Part shown: one piece after another, positions 46,355 through 54,981 of the stretch
How the letters are laid out: every line of letters starts with the position of its first letter
Position numbering within the stretch: the stretch's first letter is position 1
From: Desulfovibrio sp. Huiquan2017
GTDB taxonomy: Bacteria; Desulfobacterota; Desulfovibrionia; Desulfovibrionales; Desulfovibrionaceae
DNA: 64,000 bases
NCBI RefSeq assembly: GCF_017351175.1
Contig: NZ_JAFMPN010000003.1
Coordinates: forward strand, 124,001-188,000
Direction: 5' to 3'
The notes under the pieces: model-generated
Seen by the model: only the letters and a program-made list of their open reading frames with translations
What the model was told of the DNA's origin: nothing
Database searches by the model: none
Position numbers and translations under genes: made by a program

Positions 46355-47041
46355 ATGCAGATCGACGGTCTCTCAAACACGCATGCCTCGTTCACTCTGG
46401 CCAAGCCCGCCACCGAAAAAGGCAATGCGCCCACCAGCGGCGTGGACCTGACCGGATTCACGTCGAAGAACATGCTGGCCTCCAACTTCTTCGATAACGA
46501 TTACAAGGAATCCAAGTATACCGCCGGACTGCTCGACTCCCTCAAGATCAAAAACAGCTTCGACACGCAACTCCAAGGCATAGTGCAACAGGCGAAGCAG
46601 GCCATGAAGGCCGTCCCGGCTGATAATTACGCAGAGAGGCTCCTGGCCGTCGACAAGGTCGTTAAAGGCCTTGAAACGGTAGTCGAAGACAGGGTTTCGG
46701 ACGAAGTCGGCGACGAGATCGAAAAAAACACCGACGAAATGGAAAAGACCGTGGAGGAAAAGGCGACCGAGAACCAGGGCGAGGCCGCCCAGGCCCTGGC
46801 CGATGCCGCCGACGCCGTCCCGGACGAAACGCCCTCAGGGGACGAAGAAGGGGACGGCGGAAGCGAAAAGACGGCCGAGGCCGCCCCGCCGATCGTCGAG
46901 AACCCCGCCCCGCTGGAAGCCCAACCCCAGACGCCGGCCGCAGCCCTGGCCGAGGAAACCGCCGCGGGGACGTCCGGAGATCCGGTTGCCACACAGGATG
47001 CCATGGTCCAAAGGCGGCCCCGTCTGGACCTGATCGTCTGA
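46355..47041 (+). CDS. Hypothetical acidic protein, possibly flagellar-regulon
   Basis: 228 residues with GGAGG before the ATG. No known domain is recognised. Residues 1-60 are mixed; 60-125 look helical with a coiled-coil rhythm (VKGLETVVEDRVSDEVGDEIEKNTDEMEKTVEEK); 130-215 are low-complexity Ala, Pro and Glu. There is no signal peptide. The last residues RRPRLDLIV are well ordered and could be a docking tail. The sigma-28-like promoter suggests expression with late flagellar or chemotaxis genes. It is not in an operon with the kinase downstream as far as can be judged. Confidence 0.7.
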   Translation: MQIDGLSNTHASFTLAKPATEKGNAPTSGVDLTGFTSKNMLASNFFDNDYKESKYTAGLLDSLKIKNSFDTQLQGIVQQAKQAMKAVPADNYAERLLAVDKVVKGLETVVEDRVSDEVGDEIEKNTDEMEKTVEEKATENQGEAAQALADAADAVPDETPSGDEEGDGGSEKTAEAAPPIVENPAPLEAQPQTPAAALAEETAAGTSGDPVATQDAMVQRRPRLDLIV

Positions 47042-47174
47042 GCCTTTTCCCCGGCCTCGGGGAACCTAGCGCGGCCGCGCCCCGACCAGCCCGGCCGCCG
47101 TCTCCCTTGCCTTTTTCCCGTGCGCGGCATAGTGTCGAAAACACATGCAAATCGTGCGGATGAAGGGAAGCGGC

Positions 47175-48583
47175 ATGGTCAGACCCAACCTGAGACACAC
47201 CATCATACTCGGCATAGCCATCTTCACCCTGGCCTTCGGTTGCATCGCCTTGCTCTCCCTGTCCAACCTGAACAGGCTCCAGGAGGCCGTCCTTCTGGTC
47301 GAGCGGGCTGACGATCTGCGCAACCTCATTCTCGAAATCCGGCGCGAGGAAAAGAACTTCTTCCTGTACCAGGACGCCGCCCTGTTCTCCGTGGGCCGCG
47401 AAAATCTCAACCGGGCCGGGACCATCCTCGACGAACTGTCCGGCGAAATCGCCAAGCTCCACGGCAAGGCGCACGGCACGGACCTGGCCCGGGGCATGAA
47501 GGAATACGGCGAATGGCTGGCCCGGCTCAGCGCGGCCACGGTAAACGTCGGCGAAGACAGCGCGGCGGCCCACGCACTGCGCGAGACCGGACAAAACCTG
47601 GTGGAGCACTCCCGGGCCATCGCCGAGCTGGAACGCGACAACATCCTGAACATCAATCAGCGGCTGCGCATGACCCTGTTCATTTCCATGGGCGTGGTGG
47701 CCCTGGTGGTCCTGGCCTTGGTCTTCTTCGTGTCCAAGGCCATCCTCGGACCGCTGACCCAGGTGCAGGCGGCCACGCGGCGCATCGCCCAGGGGACCTT
47801 CGTGCCCCTGGCCGTGCGCGAGGACGGCGATGAAATCCAACAGGTCTTCGTGGCCCTGAACTCCATGGTCGAGGAGCTGAAAAAACGCCAGACCCAACTG
47901 GTCCAGGCCCAAAAGCTGTCGTCCATCGGCACGCTGGCCTCGGGCATCGCCCATCAGTTGAACAACCCGCTGAACAACATCTCCACTTCAGCCCAGATCC
48001 TCGAAGAGGAAACCAAGGGGCAGAACGAATTCGCGGACAAGATGATGCGCAACATCATCCAGGAGACCCTGCGCGCCCGGGACATCGTCAAGGGATTGCT
48101 CGAATTTTCCCGGCATAAGGATTTTTCGCCCGCGCCGTGCAATCTCAAGGAGGTGCTGAAAAGCGCCGTGCGGCTGGTCTCGGGGCAGCTCGGACCACGC
48201 ATCGCCGTGGACATCCGCGTACCGGACGACGTGACCCTGTATCTGGACCGGCAGCGTTTCCAGGAAGCCCTGCTCAACCTGATCATCAATTCCATCCAGG
48301 CCATCGGCGACGCCGAGGGAACCATCCGCATCGAGACCTCGCGGGAGACGGACCACAAGGTCCTGACCCTTTCCGACAACGGGCCGGGCATGTCCCCGGA
48401 TACCCTGCAACGCATCTTCGACCCGTTCTTCTCCACCAAGGAAGTGGGGCAGGGAACGGGACTGGGCCTGTACATCGTCTACGGCATCATCGAGGAGCAC
48501 CGGGGCACCATCCGGGTGGACTCCACCCCCGGCCAGGGGACCGCCTTCACCATCAAACTGCCCCTTGAGCCCGAGGAGAACGC

Positions 48584-48587
<4 letters not shown>
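47175..48587 (+). CDS. Membrane sensor histidine kinase
   Basis: 470 residues from ATG 47175 (AAGGGA upstream); ATGs at 47145 and 47160 are alternatives. TM1 (about 8-30) and TM2 (about 165-187) flank a helical periplasmic sensor of about 130 residues of the four-helix-bundle kind (LRNLILEIRREEKNFFLYQD). A HAMP linker (190-240) precedes HisKA with H260 (IAHQLNNPLNN) and an HATPase with N, G1 (LSDNGPGM) and G2 (GTGLGL) boxes. The AHQLNNPL form is typical of NtrB-like kinases paired with sigma-54 activators. Its stop overlaps the start of that regulator by ATGA. Confidence 0.93.
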
Positions 48588-49892
<1,305 letters not shown>

Positions 49893-49915
<23 letters not shown>

Positions 49916-51968
49916 CCGTCCCGCACAGGGCGATGTCCGCGGCCTCCTCCATGGTCGAAACGAAACGGATGTCCAGCCCCTCGACCACTTCGTCCTCGAT
50001 GGACTTCACCCCGGCTTCGCAACCGCGCGGCAGGATGACCACGGGTATGCCCGCGCTCCTTGCGGCCATGAGCTTTTCGCGGATGCCGCCCACGGGCAGG
50101 ACCTCGCCGAGCAGCGACAACTCCCCGGTGGAAGCCACGTCCTGGCGTACCGGTCGGCCGGTAAGCAGGGAGAGCAGCGCGATGGTGATGGCCACGCCCG
50201 CACTCGGCCCCTCCTTGGAGACCGCGCCCGCCGGGATGTGTACGTGAATGTCCGAAACGGCGTAGAATTCCGGGTCGATGCCAAAGGCCGCCGCGTGGCT
50301 GCGGCAATAACTGAGGGCGGTCTGGGCCGACTCGCGCAGGACCTCGCCCAGGGAACCTGTTAAAATGAGTTGCTTGCTGCCCCGCATGCGGGCCGCCTCG
50401 ACGAAAATGATCTCCCCGCCGATCTCGGTCCAGACCAGGCTGGTGGCCAGGCCTACCTTGGGCGCGGTCTGGGCCGGGGTGGAGGTGTAGGGCGGCGCCC
50501 CGAGCATCTCCTGGAGCATGACCGGATCAACGGTAATCGCGCCCGCCCCCTCGGCCAGGACCCGTTTGGCCAATTTGCGGCACAGCGAAGCGGCCTGCTG
50601 CCGGAGCTTGCGCAGCCCGGATTCACGGGCGTACCCGGCAATGAGCCGGGTCACGGTTTCGTCCGGGAAGGTCACCAGCTTCTCGTCCAGCCCATGTTGG
50701 GCCAGGACCTCGGGGATGAGGTAGCGGGTTGCAATCTGCAACTTCTCCCCGGGCGTGTAGCTGGGGAACTCGATGACCTCCAGCCGGTCGCGCAGCGGGG
50801 CCGGGAGGCGCTCCACCCCGTTGGCCGTGCAGATGAACAATGCCCCCGACAGGTCGAAAGGCAGCCCCAGGTAGTGATCCACGAAGGCGGTGTTCTGTTC
50901 GGCGTCGAGCATCTCCAGCAGGACCGAGGTGGCGTCGCCTTGAAAATCCTGGACCGCCTTGTCCACTTCGTCGAGCATGATCACCGGATTGCGGGTACCG
51001 GCCTTGCGCAGCCCCTGAATGATCCGGCCGGGCATGGCCCCGACATAGGTCCGCCGATGGCCGCGCAATTCGGCCTCGTCGCGCAACCCGGCCAGAGACA
51101 GGCGCATGAACTTGCGTCCCAGGGCCTCGGCGATGGCCTTGCCGATGGAGGTCTTGCCCATGCCCGGAGGACCCGTGAAACAAAGCACAAAGCCGCGCAG
51201 ATGCTGGGCCCGCAGGCTCTGCTCCCACAGTTCGGCCACATACCGGCGCAGCTTGGTCAGGTTGACCGGCTTGCCCAGGTACTGGTCCGCGCCGCGGCGC
51301 ATGGCGTCCACGGCGGTTTTCACCGTGGCGTAACCGGTGATCATGATGACCTTGGTGTCGGGCCAGCGCTTGCGCAGGACCTGGAGCAGCTCCATGCCGT
51401 CCATGCCGTCCATCTTGAGGTCCGAAACCACGATGTTGGCCGGTTCGCGCTCCATGGAGGCCACGGCCTCGATCCCGTTGCCCACGGCCTCCACCTCGTA
51501 GCCGTCGGCCTGAAATACGATGGTCAGGTTCTCGCGGGCGATAAGTTCGTCGTCCACCAAAAGGATGCGCGGATTGCGCCGGGCGCACAGGCTCTTGACC
51601 GCCAGGAACTCCAGGATGCGGTCCTTGACCCGTTGCAATCCGTAATGACGGGCGTTCAGGACCTCCTCGGCTCGGGCGAGGTCCAGGTTGTCGCGGGTGG
51701 CCGTATTCCACGGCAGGGAGAGAATGACTTCGAGAAAATTCAGGCTGATGGCGTACTCGGGCGAGGCCGGGTCCACACTGTCCAGGCGGTCGCACTCGAT
51801 CCGGGCCGTCTCCAGGATTTCCGGCGGCAACCCGGCGGATTCCACCTGCTCCCGCAGGGAATCGTGAGCCCGGGCCGGAGGCGCGGCGGGCCGCGTCTCG
51901 GGAGGTTGCGCCGCGACGGGCTCCGCTTCCCGGGGAACGGAAGACTTTCGTTTGCCGAACCAGCCCAT
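49893..51968 (-). CDS. Lon-type protease with inserted response-regulator receiver domain
   Basis: 691 residues. The usual Lon N-terminal substrate domain is absent; the protein starts with a Pro/Ala linker (10-35) and the Lon helical region (36-130: SLNFLEVILSLPWNTATRDN, GLQRVKDRILEFLAVKSL). A complete receiver (134-250) then follows with D139/D140, phosphoacceptor D183, T211 and K233. Lon resumes with Walker A GPPGMGKTS (266-274), MLDEVDK, and the protease domain with catalytic S589 (EGPSAG) and K632 (GGIREKL), 43 residues apart as in E. coli Lon. Phosphorylation probably controls the protease. The adjacent kinase-regulator pair is the obvious partner. Confidence 0.93.
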
Positions 51969-52040: not shown

Positions 52041-52069
52041 ATAATAGTTACCTATCACGCTACTGTGAA
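52041..52069 (-). promoter_or_regulatory. Probable promoter of the receiver-Lon gene
   Basis: On the minus strand TTCACA (52069-52064), 17 bp, TATTAT (52046-52041), each matching sigma-70 elements at 5 of 6 positions. The leader to the ATG at 51968 would be about 65 nt. Confidence 0.5.
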
Positions 52070-52366
52070 GTTGTTAAGGTTGCAATACGCAACGCCGGCC
52101 AATTTCGCCCCGTCAACGGACAGGCCAACTTTCTTCTTGCCATTTACGGCCTTTAAAAACCGTCTCAACCCGTTGTCATAATGTAGCTTCAGGCCGATCT
52201 ACCCAAGACGTGCCCGAAAGGGATTTTGCAGGGTAAATCCCCTTTTCTGGCTCCTTGCCCCGGCTTCGCCCCCCAGCCCTAGACACCGTTGCATACTGCA
52301 TCACCAGCATAAACCGCCGGATCACGCCATATAGCCATCTTCCGGCGAAAATGGGGTGTATGAGCG

Positions 52367-52411
52367 TTGCATTTCGCATCATACTGAGTGCGTATGCAAG
52401 GTTTTGTTTTT
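52367..52411 (+). terminator. Terminator-like stem-loop with T-rich tail
   Basis: Arms TTGCAT + CGCA and TGCG + ATGCAA (52367-52378, 52389-52399) followed by GGTTTTGTTTTT. No plus-strand gene precedes it, so it would end a small RNA or attenuate transcription into the USP-like gene. Confidence 0.4.
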
Positions 52412-52531
52412 GGTTAATACTTATTTTTCAACATGTTAACAAAGATATCGCATTTGGCATGTGTTTTGATTCACAAGCCTAAAGACAGGGGCGAACAGGC
52501 AATCTCCAACCCCAAAAGCAAGGAGTGAGAC

Positions 52532-53137
52532 ATGGCCCTCTTCAGTACCGTCAAGAGAGTGGTGGACAGGCATTATGCGGCCCAGGCCGCGGCAAACTGC
52601 AACACGTGCAGTATGGGCACGTGGGTCGTCTGCCATGAAAATCATTTATTGGAGAAATCGGGAGGATCTTCGATGAAGACATTTTTCAAGCGCATCACCG
52701 GCACCCGTCGTCAATCCGTGACCCCCGCGCCCGCCGTCGTGGCCGCTGCCGGCTGTGGTTGCCGCGAACGGCAACAATGCAAAATACTCATCGTCAGCAA
52801 AGGGCAGGAGTTCTCCCGAGGCATCGCCGACTACGCCGTGGACATGGCCTGCAAGACCCGCAGCTCCCTGGTGGCCCTGAACATAGACGAGTCCGGACGG
52901 GACTTCGCCGGGTTCCGCAGCCAGGCCGAACGCAACATAGAATACTTCAATAAGAAGGCGGCCGACGCGGGCCTGACCTTCCGCCACGAGATCCAGCAGG
53001 GAGACGAGAACGCCATCGTCGCCCGGATGCACGAAAAAGACCCCAGCTTCCGTTACGTCATGGACGACTCCGCAGCCGTCTGCAAGAACAGGAGCAGTAT
53101 TCCCGTGTACACCCGAGCTACGTTGCGGGCGAGATAA
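52532..53137 (+). CDS. Universal-stress-protein-like protein with two in-frame starts
   Basis: 201 residues from ATG 52532 (AAGGAG, 6 nt spacing). A second in-frame ATG at 52673 has its own GGGAGG with 7 nt spacing and would give 154 residues, so two forms may be made. The first 47 residues include C23-x2-C26 and C34. From about residue 80 the fold looks like a UspA half (CKILIVSKGQEFSRGIADYAVDMACKTRSSLVALNI), but the nucleotide-binding glycine motif is missing. It lies 44 bp upstream of the SLC13 permease and is probably co-transcribed, suggesting regulation or assembly of that transporter. Confidence 0.75.
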   Translation: MALFSTVKRVVDRHYAAQAAANCNTCSMGTWVVCHENHLLEKSGGSSMKTFFKRITGTRRQSVTPAPAVVAAAGCGCRERQQCKILIVSKGQEFSRGIADYAVDMACKTRSSLVALNIDESGRDFAGFRSQAERNIEYFNKKAADAGLTFRHEIQQGDENAIVARMHEKDPSFRYVMDDSAAVCKNRSSIPVYTRATLRAR

Positions 53138-53181: not shown

Positions 53182-54981
53182 ATGACCCCAGAAATCATAA
53201 CGGTCCTGGCCGTTCTCGTATTCGCCGTACTCCTCTTCATCTTCGAATGGGTCCGGGTGGACGTGGTCGGCATCATCATGATGGTGCTCCTGCCCCTGCT
53301 TGGCTTGGTCACGCCGCAACAGGCGATCAGCGGACTGAGCAGCAACGCCGTCGTCTCCATCATCGCCGTCATCATCATCGGCGCCGGGCTGGACAAGACC
53401 GGCGTAATGAACTCCATGGCCCGCATCATCCTGCGCTTCGCGGGCAAGAGCGAATCGCGCATCATGACGCTCATCGCGGGCACCGTGGCCATCATCTCCG
53501 GCTTCATGCAGAACATCGGGGCCGCCGCCCTGTTCCTGCCCGCGGCCAAACGCATCGGCAACCAGACCGGCGTGCCCGTGGGACGTCTGCTCATGCCCAT
53601 GGGATTCTGCGCCATCATCGGCGGCTGCCTGACCCTGGTCGGCTCCAGCCCGCTGATCCTGCTCAACGACCTGATGGTCGTGGGCGGCAAGAAGTACGAG
53701 GCCTTCGGCCTGTTCAGCGTCACTCCCGTGGGCCTGTTGCTCGTGGCCGCCGCACTGATCTACTTCATCCTGTTCGGGCGTTTTATCCTGCCCAACAGGT
53801 CCGCCGACGAGAGTTCCGGCCCCATGTCCTCGATCCTGACGGGCACCTACAACAACGTCGGTTCCCTGTTCGAATTGGCCGTGCCCGAGGGCTGGACAAA
53901 CGACTCCCCACTCAAGGCGCTGGACCTTCGGCCCATCTACTTCTGCACCCTGGTGGCCATCTGCCGCGAACACGGCAAACAGCACATCTTCGCCCCTCTG
54001 CCCGATGAGACCATCAGACCGGGCGACCAGATCGTGGTCGTGGGCCCGCAGGAATTCGTGGAGCACATGGCCGAGGATCTCGGCTGGGAGCTTCGGCCCG
54101 AGCTGACCACCTTTGCCGAGGAACTCTCTCCCAACAACGCGGGCATCATGGAGGGCATCGTCACTCCCCGCTCCGAATTCATGGGCAAGACCATCGCCGA
54201 ACTGCGCATCCGGGAACGCTTCCAAGTTTCGCCCCTGGCTATCTTCCGGGGCGAAAAAATCTTCGTCAGCGGGCTTTCGGACATCATCATCGAGTCCGGC
54301 GACGCCCTGCTCCTGCACGGCCGCTGGGAGATGTTCCACATGCTCAAGGGGTTGCCCGACCTGGTCTTCACCGAGACCGTCAAGGGCGAGTTGTTGCGCA
54401 CGGACAAGGCCAAGATCGCGCTCATGTGGCTGGCCGTGTCCCTGGTCATGATCCTCGGGTTCCACGTCCAATTGTCCATCGCGCTGTTGACCGGTGCCCT
54501 GGGCATGGTCCTGACCAAGGTCCTGACCATCGACGAGGCCTACCAGTCCGTGGACTGGATGACCGTCTTCCTGCTCGGCGGACTCATTCCGCTCGGCATG
54601 GCCTTCGAAAATACCGGCGCGGCCAAGTACATCGCGGACACCATTATGGCGGCCCTGGGCACGCCGTCCGCCCTGGTGCTGCTGGCGGTCATCGGCGTTC
54701 TGACTTCGTTCTTCACCCTGGTAGCCTCCAACGTAGGCGCCACGGTCCTGCTCGTCCCGCTGTCCATGAACATGGCGCTCAACGCGGGCGTGGACCCCAG
54801 GGTGGCCGCCCTGACCGTGGCCGTGGCCGCATCCAATACCTTCGTTTTGCCCACCCACCAAGTCAACGCCCTGATCATGCGTCCGGGCGGATACCGCACC
54901 ATTGATTACGTCAAGAGCGGGGCCGGGATGACCGTGCTTTACATGGTTGTCATGCTGTCCGCCTTGATGTTATTCTACTGA
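53182..54981 (+). CDS. SLC13/DASS-family anion permease with TrkA_C domains
   Basis: 599 residues. Two membrane halves (about 1-200 and 415-599) flank a cytoplasmic insert with two TrkA_C/RCK_C-like domains (for example GDQIVVVGPQEFVEHM and SGDALLLHGRWEMFHML). Family motifs are NIGAAALFLPAA and SNVGATVLLVPLSMN, plus the SSPLILLND substrate loop. SLC13 relatives move sulfate, dicarboxylates or other anions with sodium. In sulfate reducers such permeases are candidates for sulfate uptake. It follows the USP-like gene and ends in a strong terminator. Substrate not proved. Confidence 0.88.
   Translation: MTPEIITVLAVLVFAVLLFIFEWVRVDVVGIIMMVLLPLLGLVTPQQAISGLSSNAVVSIIAVIIIGAGLDKTGVMNSMARIILRFAGKSESRIMTLIAGTVAIISGFMQNIGAAALFLPAAKRIGNQTGVPVGRLLMPMGFCAIIGGCLTLVGSSPLILLNDLMVVGGKKYEAFGLFSVTPVGLLLVAAALIYFILFGRFILPNRSADESSGPMSSILTGTYNNVGSLFELAVPEGWTNDSPLKALDLRPIYFCTLVAICREHGKQHIFAPLPDETIRPGDQIVVVGPQEFVEHMAEDLGWELRPELTTFAEELSPNNAGIMEGIVTPRSEFMGKTIAELRIRERFQVSPLAIFRGEKIFVSGLSDIIIESGDALLLHGRWEMFHMLKGLPDLVFTETVKGELLRTDKAKIALMWLAVSLVMILGFHVQLSIALLTGALGMVLTKVLTIDEAYQSVDWMTVFLLGGLIPLGMAFENTGAAKYIADTIMAALGTPSALVLLAVIGVLTSFFTLVASNVGATVLLVPLSMNMALNAGVDPRVAALTVAVAASNTFVLPTHQVNALIMRPGGYRTIDYVKSGAGMTVLYMVVMLSALMLFY

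Follow-up and report, generated by a model that had tools for sequence, protein, structure and literature searches.

The window (the whole 64,000-nucleotide stretch that was analysed) holds a gene for a Lon-type protease with a receiver domain, here called REC-Lon, set among genes for a membrane histidine kinase, an NtrC-type response regulator, a 201-residue protein and a CitMHS-type transporter (see the table). The kinase and NtrC-type genes converge on lon, and the operon of the 201-residue protein and the transporter diverges upstream of it. The earlier note had placed a kinase beside lon; a kinase gene is indeed nearby, but it is not the immediate neighbour, as the NtrC-type gene lies between the two and overlaps the 3′ end of lon by 23 bases. 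The 201-residue protein had no match in the Pfam scan.

Features of the REC-Lon locus, numbered by position in the window
Feature	Position	Strand	Basis
Membrane histidine kinase gene (two TM-like stretches, HAMP, HisKA, HATPase_c)	47145..48587	+	Pfam and sequence
NtrC-type response regulator gene (REC, sigma-54 interaction domain, Fis-type HTH)	48584..49915	+	Pfam
REC-Lon gene (691 aa, open ORF)	49893..51968	-	NCBIfam TIGR00763 (lon): 664.8 bits against a cut-off of 608.05
S16 protease domain, residues 480-681	49926..50531	-	Pfam Lon_C
K632 codon, catalytic lysine	50073..50075	-	residue check and conservation
S589 codon, catalytic serine	50202..50204	-	residue check and conservation
Lon AAA+ lid, residues 424-474	50547..50699	-	Pfam Lon_lid
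AAA+ large domain, residues 258-400	50769..51197	-	Pfam and Lon alignment
Receiver domain, residues 134-250	51219..51569	-	PF00072 at 135-244
D183 codon, predicted phospho-acceptor	51420..51422	-	conservation, alignment rows
Lon helical region, residues 37-127	51588..51860	-	alignment to 3m6a and 7p6u
Conserved-type N-terminal peptide MGWFGKR, then a variable linker to about residue 36	51948..51968	-	motif count
Sigma-70-like promoter TTCACA-17-TATTAT before lon	52041..52069	-	10/12 matches
Palindrome TTGCAATACGCAA, about 112 bp upstream of the lon start	52080..52092		recurs at a similar place in loci of the genus
Palindrome-like site TTGCATACTGCAT, first member of a pair (spacing 78 bp)	52289..52301		pattern scan and same-genus loci
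Palindrome-like site TTGCATTTCGCAT, second member of a pair (spacing 78 bp)	52367..52379		pattern scan and same-genus loci
Sigma-54-like promoter TGGCATGTGTTTTGAT before the 201-aa and transporter genes	52455..52470	+	genus conservation
Gene of a 201-aa protein, UspA-like by eye only	52532..53137	+	ORF list
CitMHS-type transporter gene with TrkA_C domains	53182..54981	+	Pfam

REC-Lon is an ATP-dependent Lon protease, predicted from its residues to be active. It has the AAA+ module with Walker A and B and the S16 domain with a Ser-Lys dyad that define LonA, together with a PF00072 receiver that retains the acid pair, the phospho-acceptor Asp, the Thr and the Lys. D139/D140, D183, T211, K233, S589 and K632 all lie where they had been placed on first reading, and S589 and K632 are separated by 43 residues, the same spacing as between the catalytic residues S679 and K722 of E. 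coli Lon. The Pfam matches comprise Response_reg (residues 135-244, E 5e-27), AAA (262-400), Lon_lid (424-474) and Lon_C (480-681, E 4e-70). REC-Lon aligns in two blocks with the structures of both B. subtilis Lon (3m6a; 37-127 and 255-683) and Thermus Lon (7p6u; 36-129 and 260-681), and in the sequence comparison its receiver has no counterpart in the solved Lons. The receiver thus forms an insertion that separates the helical region from the AAA+ module, and the domain order proposed in the earlier note (helical region, REC, AAA+, S16) is borne out by Pfam and by these alignments. At the N-terminus, [WF]F occurs within the first seven residues in 110 of 119 REC-Lon rows (starts such as MGWFGK or MGFFRK), and 105 of the 119 follow the pattern M-x(0-3)-[WF]F-x(0-2)-[KR]; this peptide is possibly a tether or docking tag.

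The substrate-binding N-domain of Lon is missing, as had been supposed: PF02190 had no match in the Pfam scan of REC-Lon, and it is not among the 25 of 29 Pfam families shown for 40 scanned homologues, the remaining families each matching at most one of the 40. The earlier note had suggested a search for proteins with the order Lon helical region, REC, AAA and S16; all 40 members scanned combine REC, AAA, lid and Lon_C. The main rival to the explanation that we prefer starts from here. The receiver would be a built-in adaptor that replaces the N-domain and captures particular substrates depending on its phosphorylation, with no part in ring assembly. The lack of an N-domain in the 40 members agrees with this, and the receiver does score against the CpdR and RssB models, although it scores likewise against many other receiver models. 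However, the point at which the receiver connects to the helical region on one side and to the AAA+ module on the other is the same in the aligned members, and such a junction suits a mechanical switch at least equally. We consider the adaptor doubtful and prefer a receiver that would act on the Lon ring itself.

The main alignment holds 119 rows longer than 600 residues, the query and 118 homologues. D183, T211, S589 and K632 are invariant in all 119, and K233 is kept in 118. A locus set gave 94 distinct rows, in which two pairs of loci that share their REC-Lon (L188 and L103, L190 and L060) are counted once; D183, K233 and S589 are present in all 94, T211 in 93, and K632 in 93 with one gap. 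The Walker residues and two arginines do not vary in any of 96 rows, two of which are copies. The earlier note had held that relatives without a conserved D183 would speak against its reading; such relatives were sought, and the residue is instead kept in every row of both sets. A fusion due to chance or artefact is rejected by the same 119 and 94 rows. The receiver might also be a passive domain or a phosphate sink with no control over proteolysis, given that fusions may persist without allostery. The family-wide retention of the phosphorylation-site residues, within a single Lon lineage, makes this very improbable. A phosphate probably switches proteolysis in REC-Lon.

Among the best 120 of 7984 protein matches, all but one (P0073, 468 residues) combine Response_reg, AAA and Lon_C. 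A profile spanning the helical region, REC and the Walker motifs matched 52 of 395 genomes of the phylum, 48 over nearly its whole length, three as cut matches (E <1e-70) and one, G128, over a separate receiver protein only, which was rejected as a REC-Lon. A scan of named genomes left 80 loci, mostly with Desulfo-, Syntropho- and delta-group labels and one with a Nitrospirae label, and 10 of 24 further genomes of the order gave a match. At one locus (L237, genome G401) the gene is split over two overlapping frames, either a broken copy or a reading error. In a tree built from the AAA+-S16 columns of 27 REC-Lon and 34 canonical Lon rows (55 of them different), a single branch with support of 100 separates the two kinds. 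One fusion therefore suffices, and repeated independent insertions of the receiver are not needed. The Lon receiver may have been copied from that of the NtrC partner; the receiver tree, which bears on this, has few columns and weak support. REC-Lon does not replace the housekeeping protease, as one to three full-length Lons were found in each of the 13 genomes searched.

Named loci flanked by 8 kb to either side number 34, and 26 of them have a kinase-NtrC pair close to REC-Lon; so do 12 of another 14 distinct loci, as compared to none of 20 control stretches. At the thresholds used, no pair was seen in the remaining eight of the 34 and two of the 14 (L194 and L196). The transporter is near REC-Lon in eight of the 34. 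Within the genus, REC-Lon is present in 18 of 36 genomes, G401 with its split gene included; all 18 have orthologues of the kinase, the NtrC-type regulator and the transporter, whereas all three are absent from 16 of the 18 genomes without REC-Lon. Those 18 contain in total two kinases, one NtrC-type gene plus one cut piece, and one transporter. One of the two exceptions (G395, locus L229) keeps the kinase and NtrC-type genes and lacks REC-Lon and the transporter. In the other, the 82% complete G402, the kinase and transporter lie near contig ends and the NtrC-type gene is cut, so that the assembly may lack the REC-Lon of this genome. This near all-or-none pattern indicates that the cassette is gained and lost nearly as a unit, in genomes of one genus that are not independent of each other.

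Two motifs of the partner proteins vary. The H-box of the kinase reads HQLNNPLNNI; the residue directly after the His, usually acidic, is Gln in 45 of 49 partner kinases (L036-L115) and Glu in the other four. The sigma-54 loop of the regulator is EAFTGA here rather than GAFTGA, and the 49 partner NtrCs comprise 19 with EAFTGA, 18 with GAFTGA, six with other forms and six that did not match the pattern.

When the Lon receiver was compared with the 69 other receivers of the genome, that of the partner NtrC was the best match (43%, E 7.6e-27; the next, 3.7e-23). At five positions of receiver helix 1 that we take to be kinase contacts, it equals the Lon receiver in four (A, R, L and T), and it agrees at nine of 13 helix positions; 39 other receivers compared reach at most two of the five and four of the 13. 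The comparison was extended to 50 Lon/NtrC pairs, one from the window and 49 from other loci. Every one of the 50 Lon receivers has Ala-Arg at residues 144 and 145, as do 32 of the 50 partner NtrC receivers; both residues match in 32 pairs, one in eight and neither in ten. A kinase that would serve both the NtrC-type regulator and REC-Lon is well supported by these receiver sequences, both in the window and in roughly two thirds of all pairs. The arrangement is not general, because 18 of the 50 pairs differ at residue 144, 145 or both. The support does not extend to one subgroup, in which the NtrC receivers have an INVQN-like helix 1, unlike the Lon receiver. At eight loci (L080, L084, L088, L095, L102, L108, L109 and L110) the transporter lies upstream of REC-Lon and helix 1 of the NtrC receiver is of the INVQN, INLQN or INLEN type; here, the two receivers perhaps have separate kinases.

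The DNA upstream of lon was searched for pairs of the palindrome TTGCN5GCAA, with one mismatch allowed and a spacing of 60-110 bp. Such pairs precede 53 of the 89 distinct REC-Lon genes, 45 of them spaced 73-74 or 85-91 bp. Of the controls, 71 of 1820 stretches taken from these loci and five of 1820 shuffles contain a pair. At least one site precedes 72 of the 89 genes; the pair is absent upstream of 36, 17 of which have no site at all. The strict pair pattern occurs once in the 3.97 Mb genome, at window positions 52289-52379, and in nine of 20 other REC-Lon genomes, at the REC-Lon promoter in seven and elsewhere in two; a control pattern read backwards matched in one of the 20 (G162). The pair is not exclusive to genomes with REC-Lon, as three of 20 without a REC-Lon match also have one, including a strong pair of the same type in G372 (C1:81577-81673).

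Sixteen loci of the genus have the complete intergenic region between lon and the 201-residue gene. In these, palindromes recur at three distances from the lon start, 105-154, 308-360 and 388-439 bases, the second being missing in one locus; in 14 of the 16, TGGCAT-N5-TTGAT is found 73-79 bp before the 201-residue gene. This conservation within the genus is what supports the sigma-54-like promoter, because a scan of the whole window gave 20 sigma-54 matches against a chance mean of 29, with no excess. The region has three sigma-70-like sites where 1.1 would be expected. Ahead of the kinase gene, at 46901-47145, no palindrome occurs even when as many as two mismatches are allowed. The partner NtrC would bind the palindromes in the DNA that separates lon from the operon of the 201-residue protein and the transporter; in D. 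vulgaris, DVU3305 is reported to regulate operons of this type.

Published work on D. vulgaris bears on the same set of genes. Rajeev et al. (2011) describe this kind of protein for DVU3303 and print the same hypothesis (PMC3333781); novelty of the architecture and of the hypothesis is therefore not supported. In the sigma-54 study, the targets given for DVU3305 are DVU3302-3298 and DVU3303-3305 (PMC4641369), and the former set is described as taking in DVU3299, a putative anion transporter, together with genes of UspA type (PMC3333781, PMC4641369, PMC10102598). Literature searches of open-licence full text found no biochemical test of phospho-control in a REC-Lon.

The linkage and co-occurrence of the genes could also be read as a feedback terminator, in which phosphorylated REC-Lon would degrade its own kinase or its NtrC partner; Lon proteases do degrade regulators. 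However, a 2023 study reports pairwise cofitness above 0.9 for DVU3303, DVU3304 (the kinase) and DVU3305 (the NtrC-type regulator), so that losing any one of them has much the same effect on fitness rather than an opposite one, and it also reports a link to the anion transporter DVU3299 in chlorate (PMC10102598). This cofitness could be a polarity effect of the transposons, and unless polarity explains it, the values make the terminator improbable.

We return to joint control by one kinase. The membrane kinase would phosphorylate both the receiver of the NtrC-type regulator and D183 of REC-Lon. The phosphorylated regulator would act at the palindromic sites in the lon-transporter intergenic DNA, the phosphorylated receiver would alter the assembly or activity of the Lon ring, and proteolysis would shift at the same time as transcription. 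That one kinase phosphorylates both receivers seems the most likely course on the basis of sequence, co-occurrence and the published cofitness. An altered Lon ring is likewise the most likely effect of the phosphorylated receiver, by comparison with NtrC-type AAA+ rings, in which pairing of phosphorylated receivers between subunits activates. On the same analogy we favour activation as the direction, through receivers that would pair across subunits when phosphorylated, at roughly even chances. Taken as a whole, a change of transcription and proteolysis together under one kinase appears probable. The fuller proposal, of a dual cassette with one kinase and near-matching receivers, a Lon switched by aspartyl phosphorylation, and gain and loss as a unit, stands in our estimate about evenly between right and wrong.

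Added here to the published description are the match of the receiver helices, the co-occurrence within the genus, and the conserved palindromes with a sigma-54-like promoter. Together, these make phospho-control of REC-Lon readily testable. If true, phosphorylation that directly controls an ATP-dependent protease from within its own chain would connect two-component signalling to protein turnover in a way that is rare.

By comparison with the published description of DVU3303, the window protein is a REC-Lon of that kind, a Lon-containing response regulator with a kinase and an NtrC-type regulator beside it. Both systems combine a Lon response regulator, a kinase and a sigma-54-dependent regulator (PMC3333781, PMC4641369, PMC10102598). 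DVU3303-3305 carry consecutive numbers and are written of as an operon, whereas here the kinase and NtrC-type genes converge on lon and the transporter operon diverges from it. The window protein may be an orthologue of DVU3303: the REC-Lons share one side of the Lon tree, and Desulfovibrio sp. A2 (L113) has Lon, kinase and NtrC on one strand, a gene order like that of D. vulgaris. REC-Lon shares the helical region, AAA+ module, lid, S16 domain and Ser/Lys dyad with LonA (endopeptidase La, S16), but it lacks the N-domain, contains an inserted receiver and falls on the opposite side of the tree from the 34 canonical rows. As in the AAA+ regulators of the NtrC family, the receiver directly precedes the AAA+ module, and it is closest to the receiver of the adjacent NtrC; unlike those regulators, REC-Lon has a Lon-type AAA+ module with S16 and no sigma-54 activation or DNA-binding domain. 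CpdR and RssB are separate receiver adaptors that control proteolysis by ClpXP. Control of AAA+ proteolysis by a receiver is proposed for REC-Lon as well, but with the receiver built into the protease polypeptide itself.
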